Source: a virus. Taken from it: a stretch of 28,742 nt of DNA. Positions 13,892 to 28,686 of this stretch are shown here, piece by piece; position 1 is the stretch's first letter, and the number at the start of each line of letters is the position of its first letter. The stretch spans positions 1 to 28,742 of IMG/VR virus record IMGVR_UViG_3300035698_012669. One strand, written 5' to 3'. The translations under genes were made by a program, and so were the position numbers. A model generated the notes under the pieces. That model did not search any database. It was not told the DNA's origin and saw only the letters and a program-made list of their open reading frames with translations.

Positions 13892-14694
13892 TTACCAATA
13901 ATTCTGCTTAAAATCAGAATCAGGTGAATATGTAAGGTGGTGTTCTATATCTGGCATAAATTTATCTACATCCTTTGGGTATGGATATATATCATGCTTT
14001 AATCGTTTGTGTAAATTTTTCTTCTCAGCTTTTGATTGTGCTAGTATTTGAATGTATCGGTGTTTAGGCGGTTCCATTCTTCTCCAAAATTCTTTATAGC
14101 CATCTTTTCCGATTTCATGTTTCAAATGTTCTAAATTTGAACTTCCCCATTTTGTATATACCGTTCTGGAATGAATCCATTTGTATGGATCTTTCTGTAA
14201 AGATATTCCATAATTGGGCATAAGTGCTATTTCATCTGAAGTAGATTGGTAAATCCAATTCGTAGCTTGATAGATTCCACCTAAATGACCTTGTCCATTA
14301 TCTGCGTAACTAAGTAAAACTTTGATGTTTTCATCATTTTCTTTTATCCATCGGAAAGTTTTTGCCAATGCATTAGATTCAATATTTGTTCCATATCCAT
14401 CGTGAATATACAACCTAGTCAATTCTAATACATTATCTTTCGTAAGACCGTCACAAATAGATGTTGGTGCCTTTGCCCTACTGGAAAGCCATATATAGCA
14501 CAACCAACTAAGGTATCATTGTTACCAAGTATATCTTCTTCATCTTCCTCATAATAAATACCAATTGCGTATCTACAAGCACTCCAATAATGAGTATAGT
14601 GATATTTTACTATTAAATCTTTAGCTATATTTTTATTTATAAGCGAAACTTTAACTTTATCTGTATCACAATATTTTTTTCCCTCTACTTTCAT
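13892..14694 (-). pseudogene. Mom-like DNA-modification protein (GNAT fold), frameshifted
   Basis: Two overlapping frames (14694-14425 and 14503-13892) make one protein of about 267 residues if a single G is restored in the GGG at 14478-14476. The N-part has DLIVKYHYTHYW and LVGCAIYGFPVG. The C-part has LELTRLYIHDGYG, LLSYADNGQGHLGGIYQATNW and PKHRYIQILAQSKAEKK. This is the layout of phage Mu Mom and relatives, acetyltransferase-fold enzymes that convert adenine in DNA to N6-carbamoylmethyladenine to resist restriction. A second homologue lies at 15365-16019. The start overlaps the HD gene stop (ATGA). Frameshift cause: sequence error, phase variation or decay. Confidence 0.65.
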
Positions 14695-15364: not shown

Positions 15365-16019
15365 TTAAAAAAATTTGTTTATCATAACAGTATGGTCTGG
15401 ATCATAACTCGCATCATATCTACTATTTTCTCCTTTGGGATATGGCAAAATTTCATATAATTCAGAAATTTCTGTTTTTAATCTTCGTCTATCCGATTTT
15501 GTACCTGTTACTTGAAAATATCTATGCTTCCCAACTTGGTCTTTTGTCTCAACTATATTTTCCCATTTCTACTAATTTAGGAATAGATGATGTTCCGTAG
15601 ATATCATGAACTGATCTTCTAGAAATTTTCTTTCCATTCACAAACATGAGTTTTTCAGCAGATGAATATCCAGTGTATAACCAATTTGTAGCTTGATATA
15701 TGTAACCATAATGTCCTTGATTTTCATCAGCGTATGAAACAACTACCGATGGTTCATTAATTTGTTTTAATGATTGAGACAAAAACCAAGATAAGGTATT
15801 CTTTTTAAGTTCATCATTTAACACCATTCTACTCAATTCATATACAGAGGTTGAAAAATCAAAAGAACCAGTTGGATATGAAAATGCACAAATCCCTTCT
15901 AATTTAGAATCAATAACTAATCCAAAAGTAAAGGCAATTGAAAATGGCATTCGTTTTAAATAATGTTTTTTCAAAAACCAATCTTTATATGTAGATTTAT
16001 TTAATCTTACTACATCCAT
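15365..16019 (-). pseudogene. second Mom-like DNA-modification protein, frameshifted near the 3' end
   Basis: The first frame (16019-15549, 156 residues) contains KHYLKRMPFSIAFTFGLV, LEGICAFSYPTGS, VYELSRMVLNDEL and VVSYADENQGHYGYIYQATN, the same ordered motifs as the Mom-like gene at 13892-14694. It stops at a TGA, but the neighbouring frame continues VGKHRYFQVTGTKSDRRRLK and LPYPKGENSRY to a TAA at 15367-15365, again matching the other copy's C-terminus. Removing one base, most simply a G from the GGG at 15564-15562, joins them into about 217 residues ending 8 bases before the HD gene. The core acetyltransferase-like domain is intact in the first frame. Substrate: DNA adenine, by homology only. 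Confidence 0.65.
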
Positions 16020-16817: not shown

Positions 16818-17666
16818 TTAAAAACTAAAAAATTCTTTACTTTTGTTTTGATGTGAGATTACACTTCTCCATCCTAATGCAGAAAAGAAATCAGTGAATT
16901 TTGATAATAATTCTCTTTCGAATATTTTATCATAATCTATGTACGTTTGAATAATATCCATTATTTCATCGGGATCTTCATCTCCGGAAAAGGCAAGTGC
17001 ACTCAATCCAAATGGATTGTTTTTTAAATAAGCCCACTTTAATTTATCACCATCTTTGAACGGTGGATATTTATATGCACATTTAAAATGTATTAATAGT
17101 TGGTTATAAGCAATTGCTGCTTTAACGTGAGCGGGAGTTGATTTTTTAAAATTAAACAGTGAACCTTGCTTACCTTCAGGTAAATATTTAGTCATATTTT
17201 TCACTGCCGTACTTTTTGATATTTCCAATATTCCCAGCTCTGGTAATTTATTTTTAAAATGGCTTATTTTACCTGATAATAGTTCTTCATCTTCACCGTT
17301 TAATATACCAATTAGTATTTCTGACATAAATTCTCTAAATGCCATTGGGAATGATGATCTTACAGTATCCAATCCCTTTACATCTAATTTTTCAACTGGA
17401 ATTCCATTATCTGATATGATCCATTGTGCGTATCTCTTTTTTGCTACCCAAAATCCAGCCTTTGATACGTATTCTTTTTTTATTTCAAATCTATGATCTG
17501 GTGCATTAAACATTTTCGTAGACATGATATTGTAAAAATTATTTAAATATTCTTGAAATTCTGAAGCTATTTCATTTACTTTTTCTGCAATCTTATCATC
17601 ATCTAATGATTTCCAATCTGGATATCTATGATTTAAAAGTGGAACTGCTGAGACAAATATGGAATC
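16818..17666 (-). CDS. 43: family B DNA polymerase, C-terminal part (end of palm plus thumb)
   Basis: Coding similarity begins at 17666 with DSIFVSAVPLLNHRYP, the tail of catalytic motif C (YxDTDS), and runs to 16818. It includes EYVSKAGFWVAKKRYAQW (the KKRY motif of family B polymerases) and a thumb region ending SKEFFSF, resembling the clamp-binding C-terminus of T4 gp43. A methionine at 17525 is the first ATG in this frame, but it has no Shine-Dalgarno and would omit motif C. Upstream the frame closes at a TAA (17702-17700). The first half of motif C (IIYVDT) lies just upstream in another frame. The piece therefore looks like a fragment of a once continuous gene; how active enzyme is made is unclear. 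Confidence 0.75.
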   Translation of the reverse strand, partial: DSIFVSAVPLLNHRYPDWKSLDDDKIAEKVNEIASEFQEYLNNFYNIMSTKMFNAPDHRFEIKKEYVSKAGFWVAKKRYAQWIISDNGIPVEKLDVKGLDTVRSSFPMAFREFMSEILIGILNGEDEELLSGKISHFKNKLPELGILEISKSTAVKNMTKYLPEGKQGSLFNFKKSTPAHVKAAIAYNQLLIHFKCAYKYPPFKDGDKLKWAYLKNNPFGLSALAFSGDEDPDEIMDIIQTYIDYDKIFERELLSKFTDFFSALGWRSVISHQNKSKEFFSF

Positions 17667-17668
17667 AA

Positions 17669-17752
17669 TCAGGTGTCGACATATATAATATGATTCATAT
17701 TATCTATATCGACATTGACGCCCTCGTTACGTCTAATTTTATTTATTTTCAT
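17669..17752 (-). pseudogene. short frame carrying the first half of polymerase motif C
   Basis: A 27-codon frame from an ATG at 17752 ends NHIIYVDT-TGA at 17671-17669. IIYVDT is the strand leading into the polymerase catalytic motif; the DS and following strand start 5 bases later in the C-part frame. Between them is TGATT, with TGATTGATT suggesting a small tandem duplication. The preceding residues (KIRRNEGVNVDID) are reminiscent of intein block F, but no HN terminus is present. It is best read as part of the broken polymerase gene. Confidence 0.5.
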
Positions 17753-17846
17753 ATACTTTTATTTTTCCTTTATAATTAATTTCTATAAATTTACAATTTA
17801 ATTCATTAACAATATTCATTCTCCGTTGGTTATCTTTTTCCCGTAA
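17739..17846 (-). pseudogene. possible homing-endonuclease C-terminal remnant in the polymerase gap
   Basis: An open frame, with its only ATG at 17819 after GGAG, encodes REKDNQRRMNIVNELN followed by CKFIEINYKGKI and stops at 17741-17739. The pattern D-x3-R, a short helix, 'LN' and an x-I-x-I-x-Y strand resembles the C-terminal core of Vsr-like (EDxHD) or related phage homing endonucleases. It fits a decayed mobile gene that once sat between the two polymerase halves. The similarity is short and uncertain. Confidence 0.3.
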
Positions 17847-17862
17847 TTATATTATATAATTA

Positions 17863-19632
17863 TTAAGTTTTAGGTAAAATTAAATCATCACCATCTTCTA
17901 ATTCACTGGCGGGTATAGTTAAAAGTACGTTATTACGTTTTACATTTACTACATTATTAGAATACATTTTAATTGTTGTACCATTATCCATATCCAAAAA
18001 GAATTGATTACCTAATTCTTTACTATATTTTCTGGATGCGGCTTTAGCAGTTGCCTTTATTACTTCTACACCAGTAGTGGTTACAGCTTCAGCATTATCT
18101 AAATCAAAAAATCGCCAGTTCTGCAATCCAAGTACACCGTACAGAGAATTGAGTAGAATTTTTTGAATTAATTGACGTTTCTTATAAAATTGATACTTCT
18201 CTTCATCTCCAGAATTACCATATTTTTTCTCCAATTTTCGGTATTCTACTCTAGTTCCGAACCAAGTATTTAATATATCAGGAATACATCCTTCTTTATC
18301 TAAATCATAAATAACACCATTTGGCGATATTGAAAAATTAAATTTAGTTAATAGTTGTTGAATCTCAGATACGGTAACCGGTTGTCCATTTAACTCATAA
18401 TCATTATCTTCTTCTTTCAAATATTTTTCTAGATCAAAATTTTGAATCACTCCCATTTTGGTTTCTGGACTTATATTTAAACTCATAATAATAGACGGAT
18501 ACAAGGAAGTTAAATCTAAATCAAATATCCAATCATACTTACCCGGAATAGGTTGTTTTACAAAAGCACCAGTGAATTTAACAGTATCTTCTTCATATGC
18601 TTGATATTTTTTATTAGGGGCAATCTTTCCCTTTCGTTTCAAATATGTCAAAATTGCACCTTCTAAATATCTAGATGAAAAAACAATATCTTCATACGAA
18701 ATGTGACCGATGTGACATATACCTCTTGCCAAATCTATAAAATCTAACTTTTTATCTAATCCTACTACAATGTCAACATCAACTAAGTTATATTCAATAA
18801 ATTTATTAATATCATTTTTAAATAAATCATCTAACGAACCTTCATACTCAATCTTACCTTTTCCAATTTCCAATTTTCCAACTGTATCTAATCGGTAATT
18901 ATCTAATTCATTATATGTGAATTTTTTATACAACATCATATAATCTAAACATGATACACCTGCAATCTGATAAACTTTTCTGAATTTATGATAATTAACT
19001 ACTCCGATTGGCGATAAATTATTAGCTTGCCTCTCCCCTAAAACATTTCTCAATCTATTATATAGATAAGGAACATCAAAGAAATCAATGTTCCATCCAG
19101 TAATTATATCAGGATTAATTTCTTGATACTTATTAATAAATGTTTGTAATAAGTTTTTCTCATTATTAAATGGTTTGATATGAACAGTTCTACCATCTAT
19201 TTCAGTAAACCGTTCAGTCAATAATTGCTCTTTATCTAAAATATAAACAAAATATTCATTTGATAAAGAATCATGTCCACCAATCGCAGTAATCTCATTG
19301 TTACCTTCCATTGGATTTGGTAGCCCAGTATCCATTTCAACCTCAATATCAAACGTTAAAACTACATTTCCTTCAGATAATTCATCTGATTCTGTGTATA
19401 AATCAATAAGTGTGCGAGTAATTGGTTGAACATCTGATTCAAATAATTCACTATGTTCATCTTTATTCGGGTAGGCTATTTTTGATAACTTATCACCATA
19501 TATTGATTCGTACTCTCCGTTATCATCTTTAACATATCCATAAGGTCTAAATTTAAAATGGGCGTATCCTTCATAATCATCCCATAGATGTATAGTGCTT
19601 GATCTTCTATCGTAGTATACATTTTTGTACAT
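17863..19632 (-). CDS. 43: family B DNA polymerase, N-terminal part (exonuclease plus motifs A and B)
   Basis: The 589 residues include the 3'-5' exonuclease motifs Exo I VLTFDIEVE (D95, E97), Exo II GWNIDFFDVPYL (D186) and Exo III YNLVDVD (Y281, D285), then polymerase motif A IFDLDLTSLYPSI (D371) and motif B KKRQLIQKILLNSLYG (484-499). T4 gp43 has 898 residues; the rest is encoded separately at 16818-17666. After KYSKELGNQ (about 535-543) the sequence leaves polymerase similarity and adds a 46-residue tail (DMDNGTTIKMYSNN, NVKRNNVLLTIP, ASELEDGDDLI) that resembles the beta elements and 'ASEL-x-x-GD' of Hint/intein domains, though without the catalytic Cys. This piece alone lacks motif C and cannot polymerise. 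The gene follows the HTH gene by 4 bases. Confidence 0.88.
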   Translation of the reverse strand: MYKNVYYDRRSSTIHLWDDYEGYAHFKFRPYGYVKDDNGEYESIYGDKLSKIAYPNKDEHSELFESDVQPITRTLIDLYTESDELSEGNVVLTFDIEVEMDTGLPNPMEGNNEITAIGGHDSLSNEYFVYILDKEQLLTERFTEIDGRTVHIKPFNNEKNLLQTFINKYQEINPDIITGWNIDFFDVPYLYNRLRNVLGERQANNLSPIGVVNYHKFRKVYQIAGVSCLDYMMLYKKFTYNELDNYRLDTVGKLEIGKGKIEYEGSLDDLFKNDINKFIEYNLVDVDIVVGLDKKLDFIDLARGICHIGHISYEDIVFSSRYLEGAILTYLKRKGKIAPNKKYQAYEEDTVKFTGAFVKQPIPGKYDWIFDLDLTSLYPSIIMSLNISPETKMGVIQNFDLEKYLKEEDNDYELNGQPVTVSEIQQLLTKFNFSISPNGVIYDLDKEGCIPDILNTWFGTRVEYRKLEKKYGNSGDEEKYQFYKKRQLIQKILLNSLYGVLGLQNWRFFDLDNAEAVTTTGVEVIKATAKAASRKYSKELGNQFFLDMDNGTTIKMYSNNVVNVKRNNVLLTIPASELEDGDDLILPKT

Positions 19633-19636
19633 TTAT

Positions 19637-19951
19637 TTATTTATTTTTATATTTATTAAGTTCATTTTCATCAATTTTTGTACATGATAATTGATTAGGT
19701 GGTGAGTTGCTATTTAATTCTATAATAAACTCATCTTCAATTAATTCATTAACATCTACATTATGTAAGTTATCTACTAAAAGATGCTTCCACGTTTTAC
19801 CTTTTACAATAGATTTTACATTCCAAGTAGATATATTATGATTTTTGGCAATGACTCGATGAGTAAATCCTTGTTTTGAAAGCTTACGTATTTCCAATAC
19901 TTGATCTGCTGTCAGCTTGGAATTTGGATGTAGTTCACCCTTTAGTGCCAT
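19637..19951 (-). CDS. stand-alone helix-turn-helix protein of homing-endonuclease-associated type
   Basis: The first half of this 104-residue protein (HPNSKLTADQVLEIRKLSKQ, IAKNHNISTWNVKSI, GKTWKHL) matches the C-terminal DNA-binding HTH commonly fused to HNH homing endonucleases and NUMOD-type modules in phages. No HNH or GIY-YIG catalytic domain is present. The second half (acidic, then NSPPNQLSCTKIDENELN) is unlike known domains. It sits between thioredoxin and the polymerase N-part, the gene in this operon that is broken, so it may be a relic of the element that invaded the polymerase region or a small regulator. The start ATG is embedded in an A/T leader. Confidence 0.6.
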   Translation of the reverse strand: MALKGELHPNSKLTADQVLEIRKLSKQGFTHRVIAKNHNISTWNVKSIVKGKTWKHLLVDNLHNVDVNELIEDEFIIELNSNSPPNQLSCTKIDENELNKYKNK

Positions 19952-20307: not shown

Positions 20308-23300
20308 TTAAGCACATTTACTTGTGCCACACGTTTTACAAATCAAACACGATTCAGCATATTCGATTTGGCAATCATCACCATCGTTAGGACAATCCAA
20401 TGGATTATCTTTTATTAATTTTTCTGCTCTTGTAGTATCTATATATTTCTTTAATTGTCTTGCAATAGCTTTACTAAACGAAACAATAGATCCTTCTGCT
20501 TTTTCTAATTGTTCAACGACAAAATCTATCTTCGCCCCATGTCGTAATGAAGTAGAGATCAATCTTGTTATAGCAACTTCTTCATCTGTATTTGTTTCAG
20601 TAATGTTATCTTCAACTCCACCATTTACAAAGTTATAGTGTCCTGATTTAATTTTTACCATTTCACCTACATCTTTATGTTTTCCATATTTACCCTTTAC
20701 AGCAAATACTTCGTATGGGAATTCATTCATTATACCCACAAATACTGTCCACTGTTCACCCTTTGCTACAGTGTGATAAACATCACAATATAACGATTTA
20801 GGTCTTTTAGGTGCATCAGAGTGAACAATTCCTACTTGTTTGTCTTTCTTTGATGTAGTATTTAATACACCTGTTCGACATTCATCTCTATATGCTGTTA
20901 TTCCTTTACAACCACTTTTCCAAGCTGTCATATATACATCATTTACTACATCTACTGATATATCTTTTGGTAAGTTTACGGTTACTGATATAGAGTGATC
21001 TATATGTTTTTGAACCCGTCCTTGCATTTCTACCTTTTTGACCCAATCTACATCATTTGCGGTTGTACCATGATATGGTGATTTTCTAATCCACTCATCC
21101 GCCTCAACTTTTGTTAAATTAATAATTTCATCCTCTGATAATCCATTTATTTTTAAAAATAGTTTAAATGTTGGGTGAAATACTGGAAACTCTTGCCAAG
21201 AATCTCCCATTTCATCAGTGTAATCAACTCTTACGTTTGCATCATTTGGATTGACCTTCTTAGAACGGAAATATACAATAGAAAATACGTTTTCAATTCC
21301 AGACGATGTTTGTGTCATTAAAGAAACTGTCCCAGTCGGGGCTATCGTAGATATTGCTATATTTCGTCTTCCCGATCTTTGTAGCCTGTTCCATAATTCT
21401 TCATTTTCACTTTTCAATCGTAATAAAAACGGATTATTAATTTCTCTTTCTGGATCCCAAATTGGGAATGCTCCTCTTTCTTCTGCAAGTATGATGGAAG
21501 ATTCATATTCTTTATGTTTCTTTCTCATCATTAAATCTTCCACAAAATCGTTACATTCATCGCTACCATATGTAAGTCCAATTGCTGCAACCATATCACC
21601 AAGTGCAGTAATTCCACATCCAGTTCTTCTACCTTGTTCAGCTTTTTCTTTGATGGTTTCCCATAAATTTAATTCTACCCATTTAATATCATCTGGCTCA
21701 GGATCTGCTTTAATCTTATTTATAATTTTTTGTACGGCTTCCAATTCTAAATCAATGATATCATCCATTAATCTCATTGCTAATACTACTTGTTCATCAA
21801 ATTTATCCCAATCAAAATATGCGTTTTCCGTAAACGGATTAACAACAAATTTAAATAAGTTCACTGCCAATAATCTACAACTATCTCTATCACAAAGAGT
21901 GATCTCACCACACTGCAAGTTATTGATATATAAGCTCTTATGTTTTTCGTTAGTTGTTTTTGTTTCAAATCCACCTATGAAAAAATTATGAAATTCATCA
22001 ACAGTCCCGTTATAAACATCCTCAGTCCCGTCAAGTTCAACAGAAACAACTTTGTGATTATAATTCATTGCCATTTCTTTCAATTTATTGAAATTTTCTA
22101 TTGGGGAAGACTTTCTACCAATTTCAGATGACACGTTTAGAGATTTACATTCAAGTATCCATTCTTTCAACATTGGTATCCTTCCCAATTTAAACTTTAA
22201 ATCTGAATATATTTTCACTTGTTCATTAGCAACTTTCCCTTTTCTCTCGTTTTCAGTTTTTGTTCTTGTTGATTTTATTCTAGCTTTGATATCAGTATTA
22301 GAATGCATTTGAATGTTATGGCATTTGGTAGAGCACAATGATACCTCTCTTTGTTGATGCTTATGTTTTATTTCCGTACCACAGCATTCACATTGTTTTG
22401 TTATAATAACTTGGTTACCCACAATTTCAGCATCGTATCCCTCATCCAACATTCTATGATATGTTTTTACCAATCTGGGATCAACATCACTATATTTTTC
22501 CAAGCCCAATTCCTTGGCCGCCCATTTTGCCAATGATATAACATTACCATTTAATTGTTTCTGTCTCCACCCACTAAAATGTTGTGGCATACCCACACTT
22601 TTAGCATGTTCTCGCCATTCTTTTATAGAAAATCGGCAGTTTAATTTATCAGTCAATTTTAATGCCGATTTTCTTAAATCTCCTTCTGTATAACCAGAAT
22701 AGTTACCATTCAACACACCAGCAGATTCACTGAACTTTCGCTTCCAATCATCAGTCATTCTATGATATGGGTTTTTATCACCTATCATGTCTTGACAATG
22801 CAATTCATCGTGTGCAACTTTACTCATAATCCAAAGGTTGCTTGGGTTATTATTCCTTGTATTATAGTCGATATGATGTACAACATGCCCTTTAGGTATT
22901 TTAGTATTATTATTAAACTCAGCAATTATCCTATGTTCTGATTTACTCCCCCTAATATTACCATTATTAATCCAAATATAATCTTGTGACTTACTATTAG
23001 AACCTGGGAACATATCTTTTAATGATGCCTCATATTTTGTCATAACTTGTAAAGAATCACCAAATACCAAATCTTTGGCTTCCTTATATTCTCCATTTTT
23101 TAACATAAATTTATGATTGCCAGTAACTCTTTCAGTCCACCCATCTTCCAATGTGACTTTATAAATGGGCTCGTCATATCCAGTTATTCTTGGATTCCTC
23201 ATATACCGAATTACAACATTCCCCTTTTCATCATAACAATAAACAGGAACATCTTTATTTTCTTCTGCAAGCTGTTTTATTGTTATATCTCCACGACCAT

Positions 23301-24222
23301 CTGCAACTGATATTATGGTGTCTCCAACTATACATGGATTTGTTGAAACTGTCTTAAATCCGAGGTCTGCGTAACAATCAGGAATAGATTCTCTGAGAAT
23401 TGTATCCCAAAACAACAAACCAGGTTCCGCATTATCCCAAACATTAAAAATTAATTTATGCCAAATTTCTTGAGGGTTAACAACCTTAGTTATTTGTGCT
23501 TCTTCTACTGGTTTATCAGTAGGCCAGTGTAATATAAATTCAGTATCACCTCTATCAACTGCTTGTAAAAATGAATCGTATTGTCTAACAGAAACATTTG
23601 CACCTGTTACTGATTTTTTATCTGCTTTAATATCTATAAATTGTTCAACATCAGGGTGTAATCCACTAATAGTCAACATTAATGCCCCACGTCTACCCGA
23701 TTGAGCCACTTCACGAGTAGTATCTGAATATCGTTCCATAAACGATACCGCACCAGTTGAAGTTCTTGCAGCATTATTTACAGGTGTAGTTTCTGGTCGT
23801 AAATGTGATATATCAGTACCAACACCTGCTCTTCGTTTCATTAAGTGAACTAAATGTTCATCGGTTCTCATTATACCTGAATACGAATCTGCAGTATTTT
23901 GAACCACAAAGCAATTAGATAAACTCATTACTTGAAATGGATTTCCTATAGCCGCCATTGGTGAACCCTGTGGTATTAAATACCCAAAATCCTTTAACGA
24001 ATCGTATATTTCTTCGTAAGTTCGACCGTTCTTATACGTTTGTTCTATTCTATATAATTCACTTGCCATCCTATGATGCATATCATCTGGAGTTGCTTCA
24101 TATAAATTACCTTCATTATCTTTTAATGCGTATTTATCTAAAAAAACACTAGCTTCTAAGTTTGAGCCATTAAAATATTCTTCGGATAGGTGTAACGCTT
24201 TTTCATAATCAATTTTTTTCAT
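20308..24222 (-). CDS. nrdJ: class II (adenosylcobalamin-dependent) ribonucleotide reductase with intein
   Basis: The 1304-residue precursor encodes an RNR of about 830 residues plus a 474-residue intein (297-770). Class II is indicated by SLSNCFVV (redox C104), EVAQSGRRGALML, the STNP/CGEI active site with thiyl-radical cysteine C771, its partner C782 eleven residues on, APTGTVSLM, GITAYRDECRTGVL and a C-terminal cysteine-rich tail (CLICKTCGTSKC), the redox tail typical of NrdJ. It reduces ribonucleotides to deoxyribonucleotides without oxygen and needs B12, so the host must make or import cobalamin. The intein must splice before the enzyme can work, because it separates STNP from the catalytic Cys. 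Thioredoxin follows immediately. A possible terminator lies upstream at 24297-24322. The ATG has an A-rich leader. Confidence 0.95.
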   Translation of the reverse strand: MKKIDYEKALHLSEEYFNGSNLEASVFLDKYALKDNEGNLYEATPDDMHHRMASELYRIEQTYKNGRTYEEIYDSLKDFGYLIPQGSPMAAIGNPFQVMSLSNCFVVQNTADSYSGIMRTDEHLVHLMKRRAGVGTDISHLRPETTPVNNAARTSTGAVSFMERYSDTTREVAQSGRRGALMLTISGLHPDVEQFIDIKADKKSVTGANVSVRQYDSFLQAVDRGDTEFILHWPTDKPVEEAQITKVVNPQEIWHKLIFNVWDNAEPGLLFWDTILRESIPDCYADLGFKTVSTNPCIVGDTIISVADGRGDITIKQLAEENKDVPVYCYDEKGNVVIRYMRNPRITGYDEPIYKVTLEDGWTERVTGNHKFMLKNGEYKEAKDLVFGDSLQVMTKYEASLKDMFPGSNSKSQDYIWINNGNIRGSKSEHRIIAEFNNNTKIPKGHVVHHIDYNTRNNNPSNLWIMSKVAHDELHCQDMIGDKNPYHRMTDDWKRKFSESAGVLNGNYSGYTEGDLRKSALKLTDKLNCRFSIKEWREHAKSVGMPQHFSGWRQKQLNGNVISLAKWAAKELGLEKYSDVDPRLVKTYHRMLDEGYDAEIVGNQVIITKQCECCGTEIKHKHQQREVSLCSTKCHNIQMHSNTDIKARIKSTRTKTENERKGKVANEQVKIYSDLKFKLGRIPMLKEWILECKSLNVSSEIGRKSSPIENFNKLKEMAMNYNHKVVSVELDGTEDVYNGTVDEFHNFFIGGFETKTTNEKHKSLYINNLQCGEITLCDRDSCRLLAVNLFKFVVNPFTENAYFDWDKFDEQVVLAMRLMDDIIDLELEAVQKIINKIKADPEPDDIKWVELNLWETIKEKAEQGRRTGCGITALGDMVAAIGLTYGSDECNDFVEDLMMRKKHKEYESSIILAEERGAFPIWDPEREINNPFLLRLKSENEELWNRLQRSGRRNIAISTIAPTGTVSLMTQTSSGIENVFSIVYFRSKKVNPNDANVRVDYTDEMGDSWQEFPVFHPTFKLFLKINGLSEDEIINLTKVEADEWIRKSPYHGTTANDVDWVKKVEMQGRVQKHIDHSISVTVNLPKDISVDVVNDVYMTAWKSGCKGITAYRDECRTGVLNTTSKKDKQVGIVHSDAPKRPKSLYCDVYHTVAKGEQWTVFVGIMNEFPYEVFAVKGKYGKHKDVGEMVKIKSGHYNFVNGGVEDNITETNTDEEVAITRLISTSLRHGAKIDFVVEQLEKAEGSIVSFSKAIARQLKKYIDTTRAEKLIKDNPLDCPNDGDDCQIEYAESCLICKTCGTSKCA
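21913..23334 (-). mobile_element. NrdJ intein with HNH homing endonuclease
   Basis: The intein starts at C297 with block A CIVGDTIISV, has block B TGNHKFMLKNG, and near its end block F VYNGTVDEFHNFF. It terminates SLYINNLQ before the +1 Cys of CGEI, so the last residue is Gln instead of Asn and the penultimate residue is Leu, not His. Gln-ending inteins are known and splice. Between the splicing blocks are an HNH nuclease (HVVHHIDYNTRNNNPSNLW, residues 447-464, and H471), a CxCC plus CSTKC zinc-like site (611-634), and two repeats of an x-EW-x-x-x-x-K/H segment (about 534-540 and 686-693). Insertion directly before the essential thiyl Cys is a classic refractory-to-loss site. Confidence 0.92.
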
Positions 24223-24687: not shown

Positions 24688-25130
24688 AGTATTCGTTTTT
24701 CATTATGTTTTATAACCCACTCATATTCTTCTAAATTTGTTTCATCTGGAGAGTGTTTAACCTCATAAAGTAAAGCATCCAATTCAGGTATATTATCAGT
24801 ATAATAATCAATAATTGCATCTTTGTATTCATTATCGGTATTGAACTCATAATCATACTCGTCCAATTTCCACCCAAAATCTATCATTTGTTGGTGGTGT
24901 CTAAATTCATGTGATATAGTTGCTTCATTCTGATCTTCTCTTATAAGTAAAATTCCTCTTTCCATTGTATATTCTCTTCCATCCACATATATTTCAGAAT
25001 ATTTATTAGGTGAATAATATCCACCTGCGAAATCATATTCATCTACACTGATTATGATGATATCAGGGATTGATATATCCTTTGGAAACTTTAACCAATT
25101 TAATTCTAATGATGGATTTTTTATTTTCAA
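24684..25130 (-). CDS. zincin-like metallopeptidase-type protein (HExxH)
   Basis: The 148-residue protein has one clear signature, ATISHEFRHHQQ (H74, E75, H78), the HExxH zinc-binding and catalytic motif of zincins, within a helix following an extended beta region (GILLIREDQNE). A third metal ligand is not certain; E or D residues follow in the acidic stretch DEYDYEFNTDNEYKD, about 15-25 residues on, as in gluzincin-like enzymes. There is no signal peptide, so it would act in the cytoplasm. It overlaps the genes on both sides by 4 bases. Protease activity is inferred from the motif only. Confidence 0.6.
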   Translation of the reverse strand: MKIKNPSLELNWLKFPKDISIPDIIIISVDEYDFAGGYYSPNKYSEIYVDGREYTMERGILLIREDQNEATISHEFRHHQQMIDFGWKLDEYDYEFNTDNEYKDAIIDYYTDNIPELDALLYEVKHSPDETNLEEYEWVIKHNEKRIL

Positions 25131-25433
25131 AAATCAAAAAATTTATTTATGGTTTCTTGTTGTTTTTTAGGTATTATTTCAGTGGTTCCCTTCATTGCAT
25201 TTTCAATCCTCGCCGTTGCTATATCAAAAAATTCATCTTCCATTTCCATTCCGATAAATGAAAAACCACCAAGACGTTTGACTGCCTTACCTGTACTACC
25301 CGATCCCATATACGGATCTAATACCGTTCCATTTGGTGGGTCTGTAACGATACTATCCACAGAGTTATCAGGCAAACTCCTTTAATAACTCATAGTTATC
25401 CCCATGTAGTAATTGTATAGTATTTTGTGTCAT
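25127..25433 (-). pseudogene. remnant of a beta-class DNA methyltransferase, internally deleted and frameshifted
   Basis: An ATG at 25433 opens TQNTIQLLHGDNYELLKEF and runs into a TGA (25370-25368). Removing one T from the TTT at 25376-25374 joins it to PDNSVDSIVTDPP, the usual methyltransferase motif IV start. There DPP is directly followed by NGTVLDPYMGSGSTGKAV, the SAM-binding motif I, and GFSFIGMEMEDEF. The catalytic tyrosine of DPPY, the target-recognition domain and about 150 residues expected between these two motifs are missing, consistent with a deletion between two similar P-P codon regions. It cannot be an active methyltransferase. It sits between the gp41 helicase and the metallopeptidase-like gene. 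Confidence 0.8.
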
Positions 25434-27861: not shown

Positions 27862-28686
27862 TTATTCATCTTCTGACTCATCTATTTCTAATGTATCTGG
27901 ATCTATCTTACCACTTTTATACTTTGTAATAATATTATCACATATTTTTTCATATATTTCAGCACGAAGTTCATCCCTAGTTTCCATCATTTCTATGAAA
28001 TCTTTTGATTGAAATTTTATTTCTTCTTTATCATTCCCCTCAAATACATATGTATACCATGCGCCACCCTGTTTAACTAATTTATTATCTTTCATTACAG
28101 TTAACCAACTACCATAATCATCTATACCACTATCAAAGAATATATCAAAATCTGCAGATCTCAGTGGTGGACCCATTCTGTTTTTTACAATTTGAGCTCG
28201 GATTTTCATCCCTATAATTCTATCTTGTCCGTTTTCTTTTTGTTTAATTCTACCTAATGATTTTAAACGAATGCGTACAGATGAATGGAAAGCAAGACTC
28301 TTACCTCCGCTTGTTGTATTATGGTTCAATCTACCATTGGCTAAATACGAATGTAAATCCTCAACTTCTATATCCGCAACATACATTTTACCGTCAACTT
28401 TATTAAAATCCGGATGGTCTTTTGCAAAAATAGTGGTTCCATTTTCTATAAAGCGATGATTACTTGTTACCCTAATATCACCATCAGTATAATATTCATT
28501 TACAGTATCTTTAATCAAAAAATTCTGTATTGGTTTATATACCTCATTACCACCTTCATCAAGTGTCAATACATCAACACCTAAATCTTCAACATCATAT
28601 GCATTTGGTTCTGAGTAATTATTTACTCCAATAAATCTATCAGCAAACTCTGCTAATGTTAATTCTTCTTCTATATAAGATTCCAT
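27862..28686 (-). CDS. uvsX: split UvsX/RecA recombinase, C-terminal half fused to an intein C-fragment
   Basis: Residues 1-123 form an intein C-fragment (described separately). From T124 the protein is a RecA/UvsX C-terminal half: SGGKSLAFHSSVRIRLKS (loop L2 and following strand), KIRAQIVKNRMGPPLRSADF, IFFDSGIDDYGSW and GGAWYTYVFEG, then an acidic tail (EIDESEDE). UvsX forms filaments on ssDNA and drives recombination-dependent replication in T4-like phages. Walker A and B are missing and must be encoded upstream of the window. Five in-frame stops lie in the 56 bases upstream, so this is a separate gene. GAGG occurs 13 bases before the ATG. Trans-splicing with an N-half is required for function. 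Confidence 0.9.
   Translation of the reverse strand: MESYIEEELTLAEFADRFIGVNNYSEPNAYDVEDLGVDVLTLDEGGNEVYKPIQNFLIKDTVNEYYTDGDIRVTSNHRFIENGTTIFAKDHPDFNKVDGKMYVADIEVEDLHSYLANGRLNHNTTSGGKSLAFHSSVRIRLKSLGRIKQKENGQDRIIGMKIRAQIVKNRMGPPLRSADFDIFFDSGIDDYGSWLTVMKDNKLVKQGGAWYTYVFEGNDKEEIKFQSKDFIEMMETRDELRAEIYEKICDNIITKYKSGKIDPDTLEIDESEDE
28318..28686 (-). mobile_element. atypical split intein, C-fragment (about 123 residues)
   Basis: The fragment begins MESYIEEELTLAEFADRF, continues DVLTLDEGGNEVYKPI, shows block B VTSNHRFIENG (residues 73-83), block F YVADIEVEDLHSYLANG (102-118) and ends LNHN before the +1 Thr. Ordinary split inteins break after block B. This one breaks before most of the block A-B region, leaving an N-fragment that probably holds little more than the first 10-25 residues, like the AceL-TerL and VidaL types. 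No LAGLIDADG or HNH domain is present. Confidence 0.8.

Follow-up and report, generated by a model that had tools for sequence, protein, structure and literature searches.

A family B DNA polymerase gene of a T4-type phage is interrupted at motif C, probably by the relic of a split intein that has lost the ability to splice

We analyzed the viral record IMGVR_UViG_3300035698_012669 from IMG/VR, whose entire 28,742 bases form the window of this study, and in particular a family B DNA polymerase gene (polB) on the minus strand (19632 to 16818), whose coding sequence is broken at motif C. Its first open reading frame (ORF; 17863-19632, 589 amino acids) carries the exonuclease and motifs A and B in residues 1-542 (18007-19632), matches PF03104 and PF00136 (profile positions 15-208) and ends its polymerase part with KELGN; in nearly all alignments the relatives match only up to residue 540-543. 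The same frame continues into a tail of residues 543-589 (17866-18006) and closes with TAA at 17865-17863. On the other side of the break, a frame open from 17666 down to 16818 encodes 282 amino acids plus a stop, begins with DSIFVS, covers PF00136 positions 249-349 and includes the KKRY motif and the thumb. Two mini-ORFs lie in between: mini-ORF1 (17739-17819, minus strand, 26 amino acids) is in frame with DSIFVS, and mini-ORF2 (17669-17752, minus strand, 27 amino acids) ends in the motif C strand IIYVDT (17689-17672), followed directly by TGA (17671-17669). The GAT of DSIFVS at 17666 is in another frame, set apart by five bases (17671-17667). An inverted repeat with 19-nt arms and a 3-nt loop (17674-17714, minus strand), absent from the preliminary description of this DNA, lies just before DSIFVS, and one of its arms takes in 16 of the 18 bases of IIYVDT. 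The preliminary description had the core polymerase in pieces and the catalytic motif split over two frames, and our analysis bears out both; its five surplus bases are also present, but the insertion of about 180 bases that it placed after the first ORF does not stand, since the foreign stretch starts at 18006, inside that ORF. From the end of KELGN (18007) to the start of IIYVDT (17689) there are 317 bases, compared with about 15 in relatives. IIYVDT fits the polymerase strand (NIYIDT in relatives); of 57,484 sites scored in the window no other reaches its score, and 1 out of 2000 shuffles equals it. A profile of 18 columns covering the residues that precede motif C failed to pick out mini-ORF2 (equaled by 2425 of 5000 shuffles).

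The whole window is contained without gaps in a second record, IMGVR_UViG_3300023296_001057 (69,013 bases), with two mismatches (27486 and 28235) and an identical polB junction. A private sequencing error is therefore an unlikely source of the junction, the two records being not necessarily independent assemblies. A search with the C-terminal part matched 174 loci, of which the best 80 were kept; one of these is the same phage. In the other 79 the frame runs through motif C (YIDTDS) with the pattern KELG....NIYIDTDSVFFSA, although two of them (L044 and L055) hold little sequence upstream of the motif; the break is not a family trait. The C-terminal part is 58-63% identical to these 79 relatives, and none of the best 80 falls between 63% and 100%.

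We then asked what the tail of the first ORF resembles. Comparison cases were sought by a motif scan for PolB genes whose C-terminal part starts at an intein end (HN|TDS). The first scan returned seven stretches, four of them unrelated frames and three near-identical PolB genes (L091, L094, and L095) from a lineage other than that of the window. In these three (1856-3666 in L091) PolB is divided into three or more pieces and carries a split intein at YGD|TDS: the middle ORF, with 42 extein residues, ends '...PVSIYGD|S...TEDHSLIVFRNGEKMEIKPKELKSGDRVIIHN*' and the last ORF begins with the C-terminal intein half (IntC) as '...VYDLEMEDESHTFIANDILVHN|TDSIFVS'. The insertion site in L091 is two residues upstream of the YxDTD|S site used in Aes508, PTm1, F379, and PAC2. 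A search of phage records with the middle ORF of this type gave 45 matches, several of them annotated 'intein-containing split DNA polymerase precursor'. Four further loci (L132, L139, L141, and L142) show apparent cis inteins ending HN|TDS, before TDS, in long ORFs that are apparently family B polymerases of other lineages. A profile was built from the C-terminal ends of seven PolB N-terminal intein halves (IntN; L091, Aes508, PTm1, F379, PAC2, LR756500, and Lak-A1). Residues 543-589 of the window ORF score 17.7 bits against it, and none of 5000 shuffles is as good (best 9.7). In a frameshift-tolerant alignment the tail reaches 30.7 against a shuffle maximum of 15.6 (0 of 200 shuffles), and of the 1274 frames on the 69-kb contig it has the best match (E 0.009; runner-up 2.8). 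It is 22% identical to the first reference IntN. The same IntN end, with a stop there, is found in working-looking PolB split inteins of L091, Aes508, AS-gz, Aes516, PTm1, F379, PAC2, LR756500, and Lak-A1. With the tail read in this way, the order along the gene is polymerase, IntN lobe, stop, about 173 bases, motif C strand, five bases, and the remaining polymerase.

The tail lacks what a working IntN has at its start. Residue 1 (Ser or Cys) and block A are absent, so that the later IntN lobe adjoins KELGN directly; against five whole IntN sequences, 68-76 N-side residues are absent. Block B reads YSNN, compared with TxDH in all seven references. Close relatives of the tail were found only in the same phage in IMG/VR and not at all in phage records. 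By our alignment, the remaining tail would correspond to the lobe called N2 in PMC12707363; in characterized split inteins, according to that work, the N2 lobe is disordered, charge-complementary to IntC and drives the first capture. Structure prediction of the N-terminal part gave a mean predicted local distance difference test score of 33.9 alone and 44.5 with 14 relatives, with strands in the tail, a confidence too low to use.

These observations lead us to the reading that the locus probably holds a splicing-dead relic of a PolB split intein, together with a repair scar, in the polB gene of a T4-type phage. An ancestral polB would have carried a split intein, with IntN fused to the first half of the polymerase and IntC to the second, and protein trans-splicing, at YxDTD|S or at YxD|TDS, would normally have united the two halves. 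The intein would now be unable to splice because the residues needed for splicing are gone, and the deletion, the inverted repeat and the small insertion may be the scar of a faulty repair at the intein or at its homing site. As it stands, the locus would yield an N-chain of 589 amino acids; a C-chain could be made only if translation began at a weak or unusual start, and motif C is complete in neither chain. Among the explanations offered in the preliminary description, degenerate intein invasion is the one that our results support, more exactly as a split intein that is dead for splicing.

Several results weigh against an intein origin. Pfam, NCBIfam, and PDB searches did not detect the tail, and PF14890 gave no match in polB in a search of the 69-kb contig. 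Three motif scans (7, 11, and 25 stretches), which required exact codon classes, returned no PolB of the same family with an intact intein, and none of the last 36 loci from these scans matched the C-terminal part of the window gene. On the C side no IntC was recognized by hidden Markov model (HMM), position-specific scoring matrix (PSSM) or frameshift-tolerant alignment, and blocks F and G (HN before Ser/Thr) gave no signal there. Mini-ORF1 sits where an IntC ORF would be expected to start, and mini-ORF2 ('...VDIDNMNHIIYVDT', ending NHIIYVDT) and mini-ORF1 were each considered as IntC; both were rejected because all three methods failed. The HMM gave 1.3 and 2.1 bits on the mini-ORFs (1696 and 1171 of 5000 shuffles as good). 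The PSSM test gave a rank of 18904 on the contig; 2684 of 5000 shuffles did equally well, and 280 of 2000 did so when one deletion was permitted. The alignment score of 9.3 was below the average of the shuffles (10.6), 164 of 200 of which equaled it. At another place on the 69-kb contig (G001 16628-16738) an IntC-like match of 13.4 bits lies antisense to an ORF; it spans 14 residues and was judged to be chance. In addition, the strand IIYVDT follows the IntN remnant here, while in known cases the intein comes after the strand, and the extein pieces show no decay, contrary to what one would expect had the gene died long ago.

The remnant thus precedes IIYVDT, where an insertion after YxD or YxDTD would have followed it, and a rearrangement must therefore be assumed. 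The inverted repeat may be its trace: with a score of 13 it is the strongest short-loop repeat on the 69-kb contig (at most 12 in ten random 69-kb sequences), and it could have arisen by fold-back copying while a break was being repaired. The repeat also bears on recoding, in which a hop or a frameshift would join mini-ORF2 (…IIYVDT) to DSIFVS. Translational bypass in T4 gene 60 uses a hairpin and a stop near the coding gap together with matched take-off and landing codons. The window has a stop directly after ACC and a potential hairpin just upstream, but inspection of 17752-17640 revealed neither a slippery heptamer nor a matching pair of take-off and landing codons, ACC having no partner beside GAT, and a bypass would still leave the N-chain unjoined. 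As an RNA hairpin the repeat has z -2.75 over 161 nt, a signal that fades to z -1.49 over 281 nt (18 of 200 shuffles as good). We consider recoding, which the preliminary description had listed as translational bypassing, very unlikely. A self-splicing RNA intron is no more credible: group I introns do occur in gene 43 of Aeromonas phages (record notes; PMC2993671), but 17400-18200 gave no Rfam intron match at E values up to 10, the sole match being an implausible microRNA, and the first ORF runs into the IntN-like tail.

How the C-terminal part could be translated is a separate question. Its frame has no ATG, GTG or TTG upstream of the ATG at 17525, and between the preceding stop (17702-17700) and GAT it reads TAT GAA TCA TAT TAT ATA TGT CGA CAC CTG ATT. 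With no start before 17525 and motif C split over frames, the locus does not hold two translatable ORFs that jointly cover all motifs, and no ordinary start codon or splicing rejoins motif C as written. A scan of the gap found seven promoter sites against 5.1 expected, and no terminator. The GGAG before mini-ORF1 does not qualify as a good ribosome site, lying only one base away from the ATG.

We examined the conservation of the two pieces in a set reduced from 84 loci to the 59 with a single polymerase ORF of more than 700 amino acids, and by clustering at 90% to 12 besides the window. The window is changed at 13 of the 147 columns that are invariant in the other 12 polymerases. In the same leave-one-out count Mel-JY01, whose enzyme is intact but more distant, has 25 of 159 changed and KVP40 has 112 of 246, while the ten IMG/VR members that are close to one another have 0-2 of 134-136 each. 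In the C-terminal part 2 of 39 invariant columns are changed, and none of five in the stretch from DS to the first ATG. The changes cluster near the break (residues 500-541; 5 of 17 columns against 8 of 126, p 0.009). Conserved exteins with a decayed intein fit either a recent single accident or continued use in pieces, and we lean weakly to the accident.

Continued use would mean a working polymerase whose N-chain and C-chain assemble non-covalently, perhaps aided by the leftover intein lobe, a view compatible with the intein origin. The C-chain would start at a rare codon immediately ahead of DS, for instance CTG or ATT, perhaps through ribosomes that re-initiate once they have passed the TGA of mini-ORF2. 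The retained residues in both parts and the concentration of changes near the break argue for such a polymerase, as does the lack of any other polymerase in the 69 kb; in addition, the split 43A and 43B proteins of Aeromonas phage 25 reportedly co-purify with polymerase activity (PMC2988022). On the other hand, a C-chain that includes the catalytic Asp has no ordinary start, the N-chain is without the motif C strand, the 43A/43B break precedes motif B and is not in motif C, and the stretch from DS to ATG is tested by five invariant columns only. Taken together, we regard a polymerase working in pieces as possible but improbable. A still more specific version is a long shot: a domesticated, splicing-dead split intein would have shed its catalytic N1 half and kept the N2 capture lobe as a docking tail, leaving the polymerase in separate chains whose boundary falls exactly at the catalytic hairpin's turn (…IIYVDT / DSIFVS…); the first strand might then be supplied by the mini-ORF2 peptide of 27 residues.

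If the gene is instead a dead or hitch-hiking allele, polymerase would come from another gene in unassembled genome sequence, from a second allele carried by other members of the population, or from the host. The sequence as it stands does not allow motif C to be made, and the genome has been seen only in part, the 69-kb contig being a fragment. Against this, the sole PF00136 gene on that contig is the broken polB, and neither PF00476 nor PF07733 has a match there (no PolA, PolIII alpha or second PolB), which also disfavors the other polymerase proposed in the preliminary description. Moreover, the allele is common to two records, the conserved residues are intact, and the best 80 of the 174 IMG/VR loci include no near allele at 63-100% identity. 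We hold such an allele to be a real but minority possibility. In four intact relatives (contigs of 95-270 kb, which may be fragments too) there is no PF07733 match and no PF00476 match above the cut-off, with one weak PF00476 match in G002; this suggests that the group depends on PolB. Most likely the locus is a splicing-dead allele that descends from a working polymerase, but we cannot choose firmly among a polymerase made from the pieces, another copy, or none.

PolB split inteins of this kind are known. They have been studied biochemically, with Aes123 PolB1 as a well-studied split intein and CP21 PolB1 as a candidate cysteine-less one (PMC12707363), and the 2019 publication of MIJ3 describes a split PolB and an intein (PMC6892783). 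At PolB motif C, split inteins are found in Aeromonas, Campylobacter, Tenacibaculum, Pseudomonas, and Lak phages. The window has in common with those of T4-like and jumbo phages (Aes123/Aes508/AS-gz, CP21/F379, MIJ3/PAC2, PTm1, and Lak-A1) the gene, the motif and an IntN end of the 'GDxxI' type followed by a stop. It differs from them in having no residue 1, block A, TxDH pair or recognizable IntC, in carrying no nuclease gene between the pieces, and in the position of the remnant, which is before the motif C strand and not after it. The gp43A and gp43B proteins of Aeromonas phages 44RR2.8t and 25 are likewise a T4-type polymerase in two ORFs, but there the break is before motif B (43A has 498 amino acids) and both ORFs have ordinary starts, whereas the window is broken in motif C and its C-terminal part has no ordinary start. 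The nrdA gene of Aeh1, split by mobE, is also an essential phage enzyme left in two coding pieces after a mobile insertion (PMC2988022). The preliminary description had invoked it as a case of genes in pieces created by a homing endonuclease, which is a fair analogy for the two ORFs but not for the gap: that of the window holds an intein remnant and no homing endonuclease gene. The kind of arrangement is thus already known from split PolB inteins and split gp43. What is unusual is its state, dead, at the catalytic hairpin and in a phage assembled twice; we do not claim that dead PolB inteins are unreported.

Inteins are regular visitors in this genome, since the same phage carries a cis intein in a ribonucleotide reductase and, by inspection, a split intein in UvsX. 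The reductase ORF (20308-24222, minus strand, 1304 amino acids, class II-like) contains an intein (PF14890, E 5.6e-10) with an HNH nuclease (PF13392). UvsX/RecA is encoded in two ORFs (27862-28686, minus strand, and L089 17968-18714), with what looks like a split intein and a weak PF14890 match; in the N ORF, which is on the 69-kb contig, a Cys comes after DPW close to the C-terminus, and the C ORF (27862-28686) has LNHN|T. By eye, the reductase intein ends in Gln (…YINNLQ|C) and not in Asn. The split in the UvsX intein looks atypical, with about 30 intein residues including Cys1 on the N-half and a long C-half with TSNH, and we take it to resemble splits of the AceL/VidaL type (AceL-TerL and VidaL).

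Directly upstream of polB, 19637-19951 (minus strand) encodes a 104-amino-acid helix-turn-helix-like protein. Of the 79 other loci, 4 (L026, L056, L062, and L066) have a similar stretch of about 55 amino acids, there at a distance of 2-4 kb upstream of polB; many loci are too short upstream to tell. The protein is possibly the remnant of the DNA-binding part of a homing endonuclease. Elsewhere in the window, two overlapping ORFs at 13892-14694 (minus strand) look by eye like a single gene in which the frame changes once, close to a run of GGG, and an intact ORF at 15549-16019 looks similar to the pair. A short DNA methylase-like ORF (25127-25375, minus strand) has seemingly lost its middle, VTDPP being joined to NGTVLDPYMGSGST by eye.

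An intein that does not splice should kill an essential protein. A dead intein in the catalytic region of the only visible replicative polymerase, present in two records, would mean either that the enzyme tolerates a split in its active site or that lethal intein scars may persist in phage populations via complementation.

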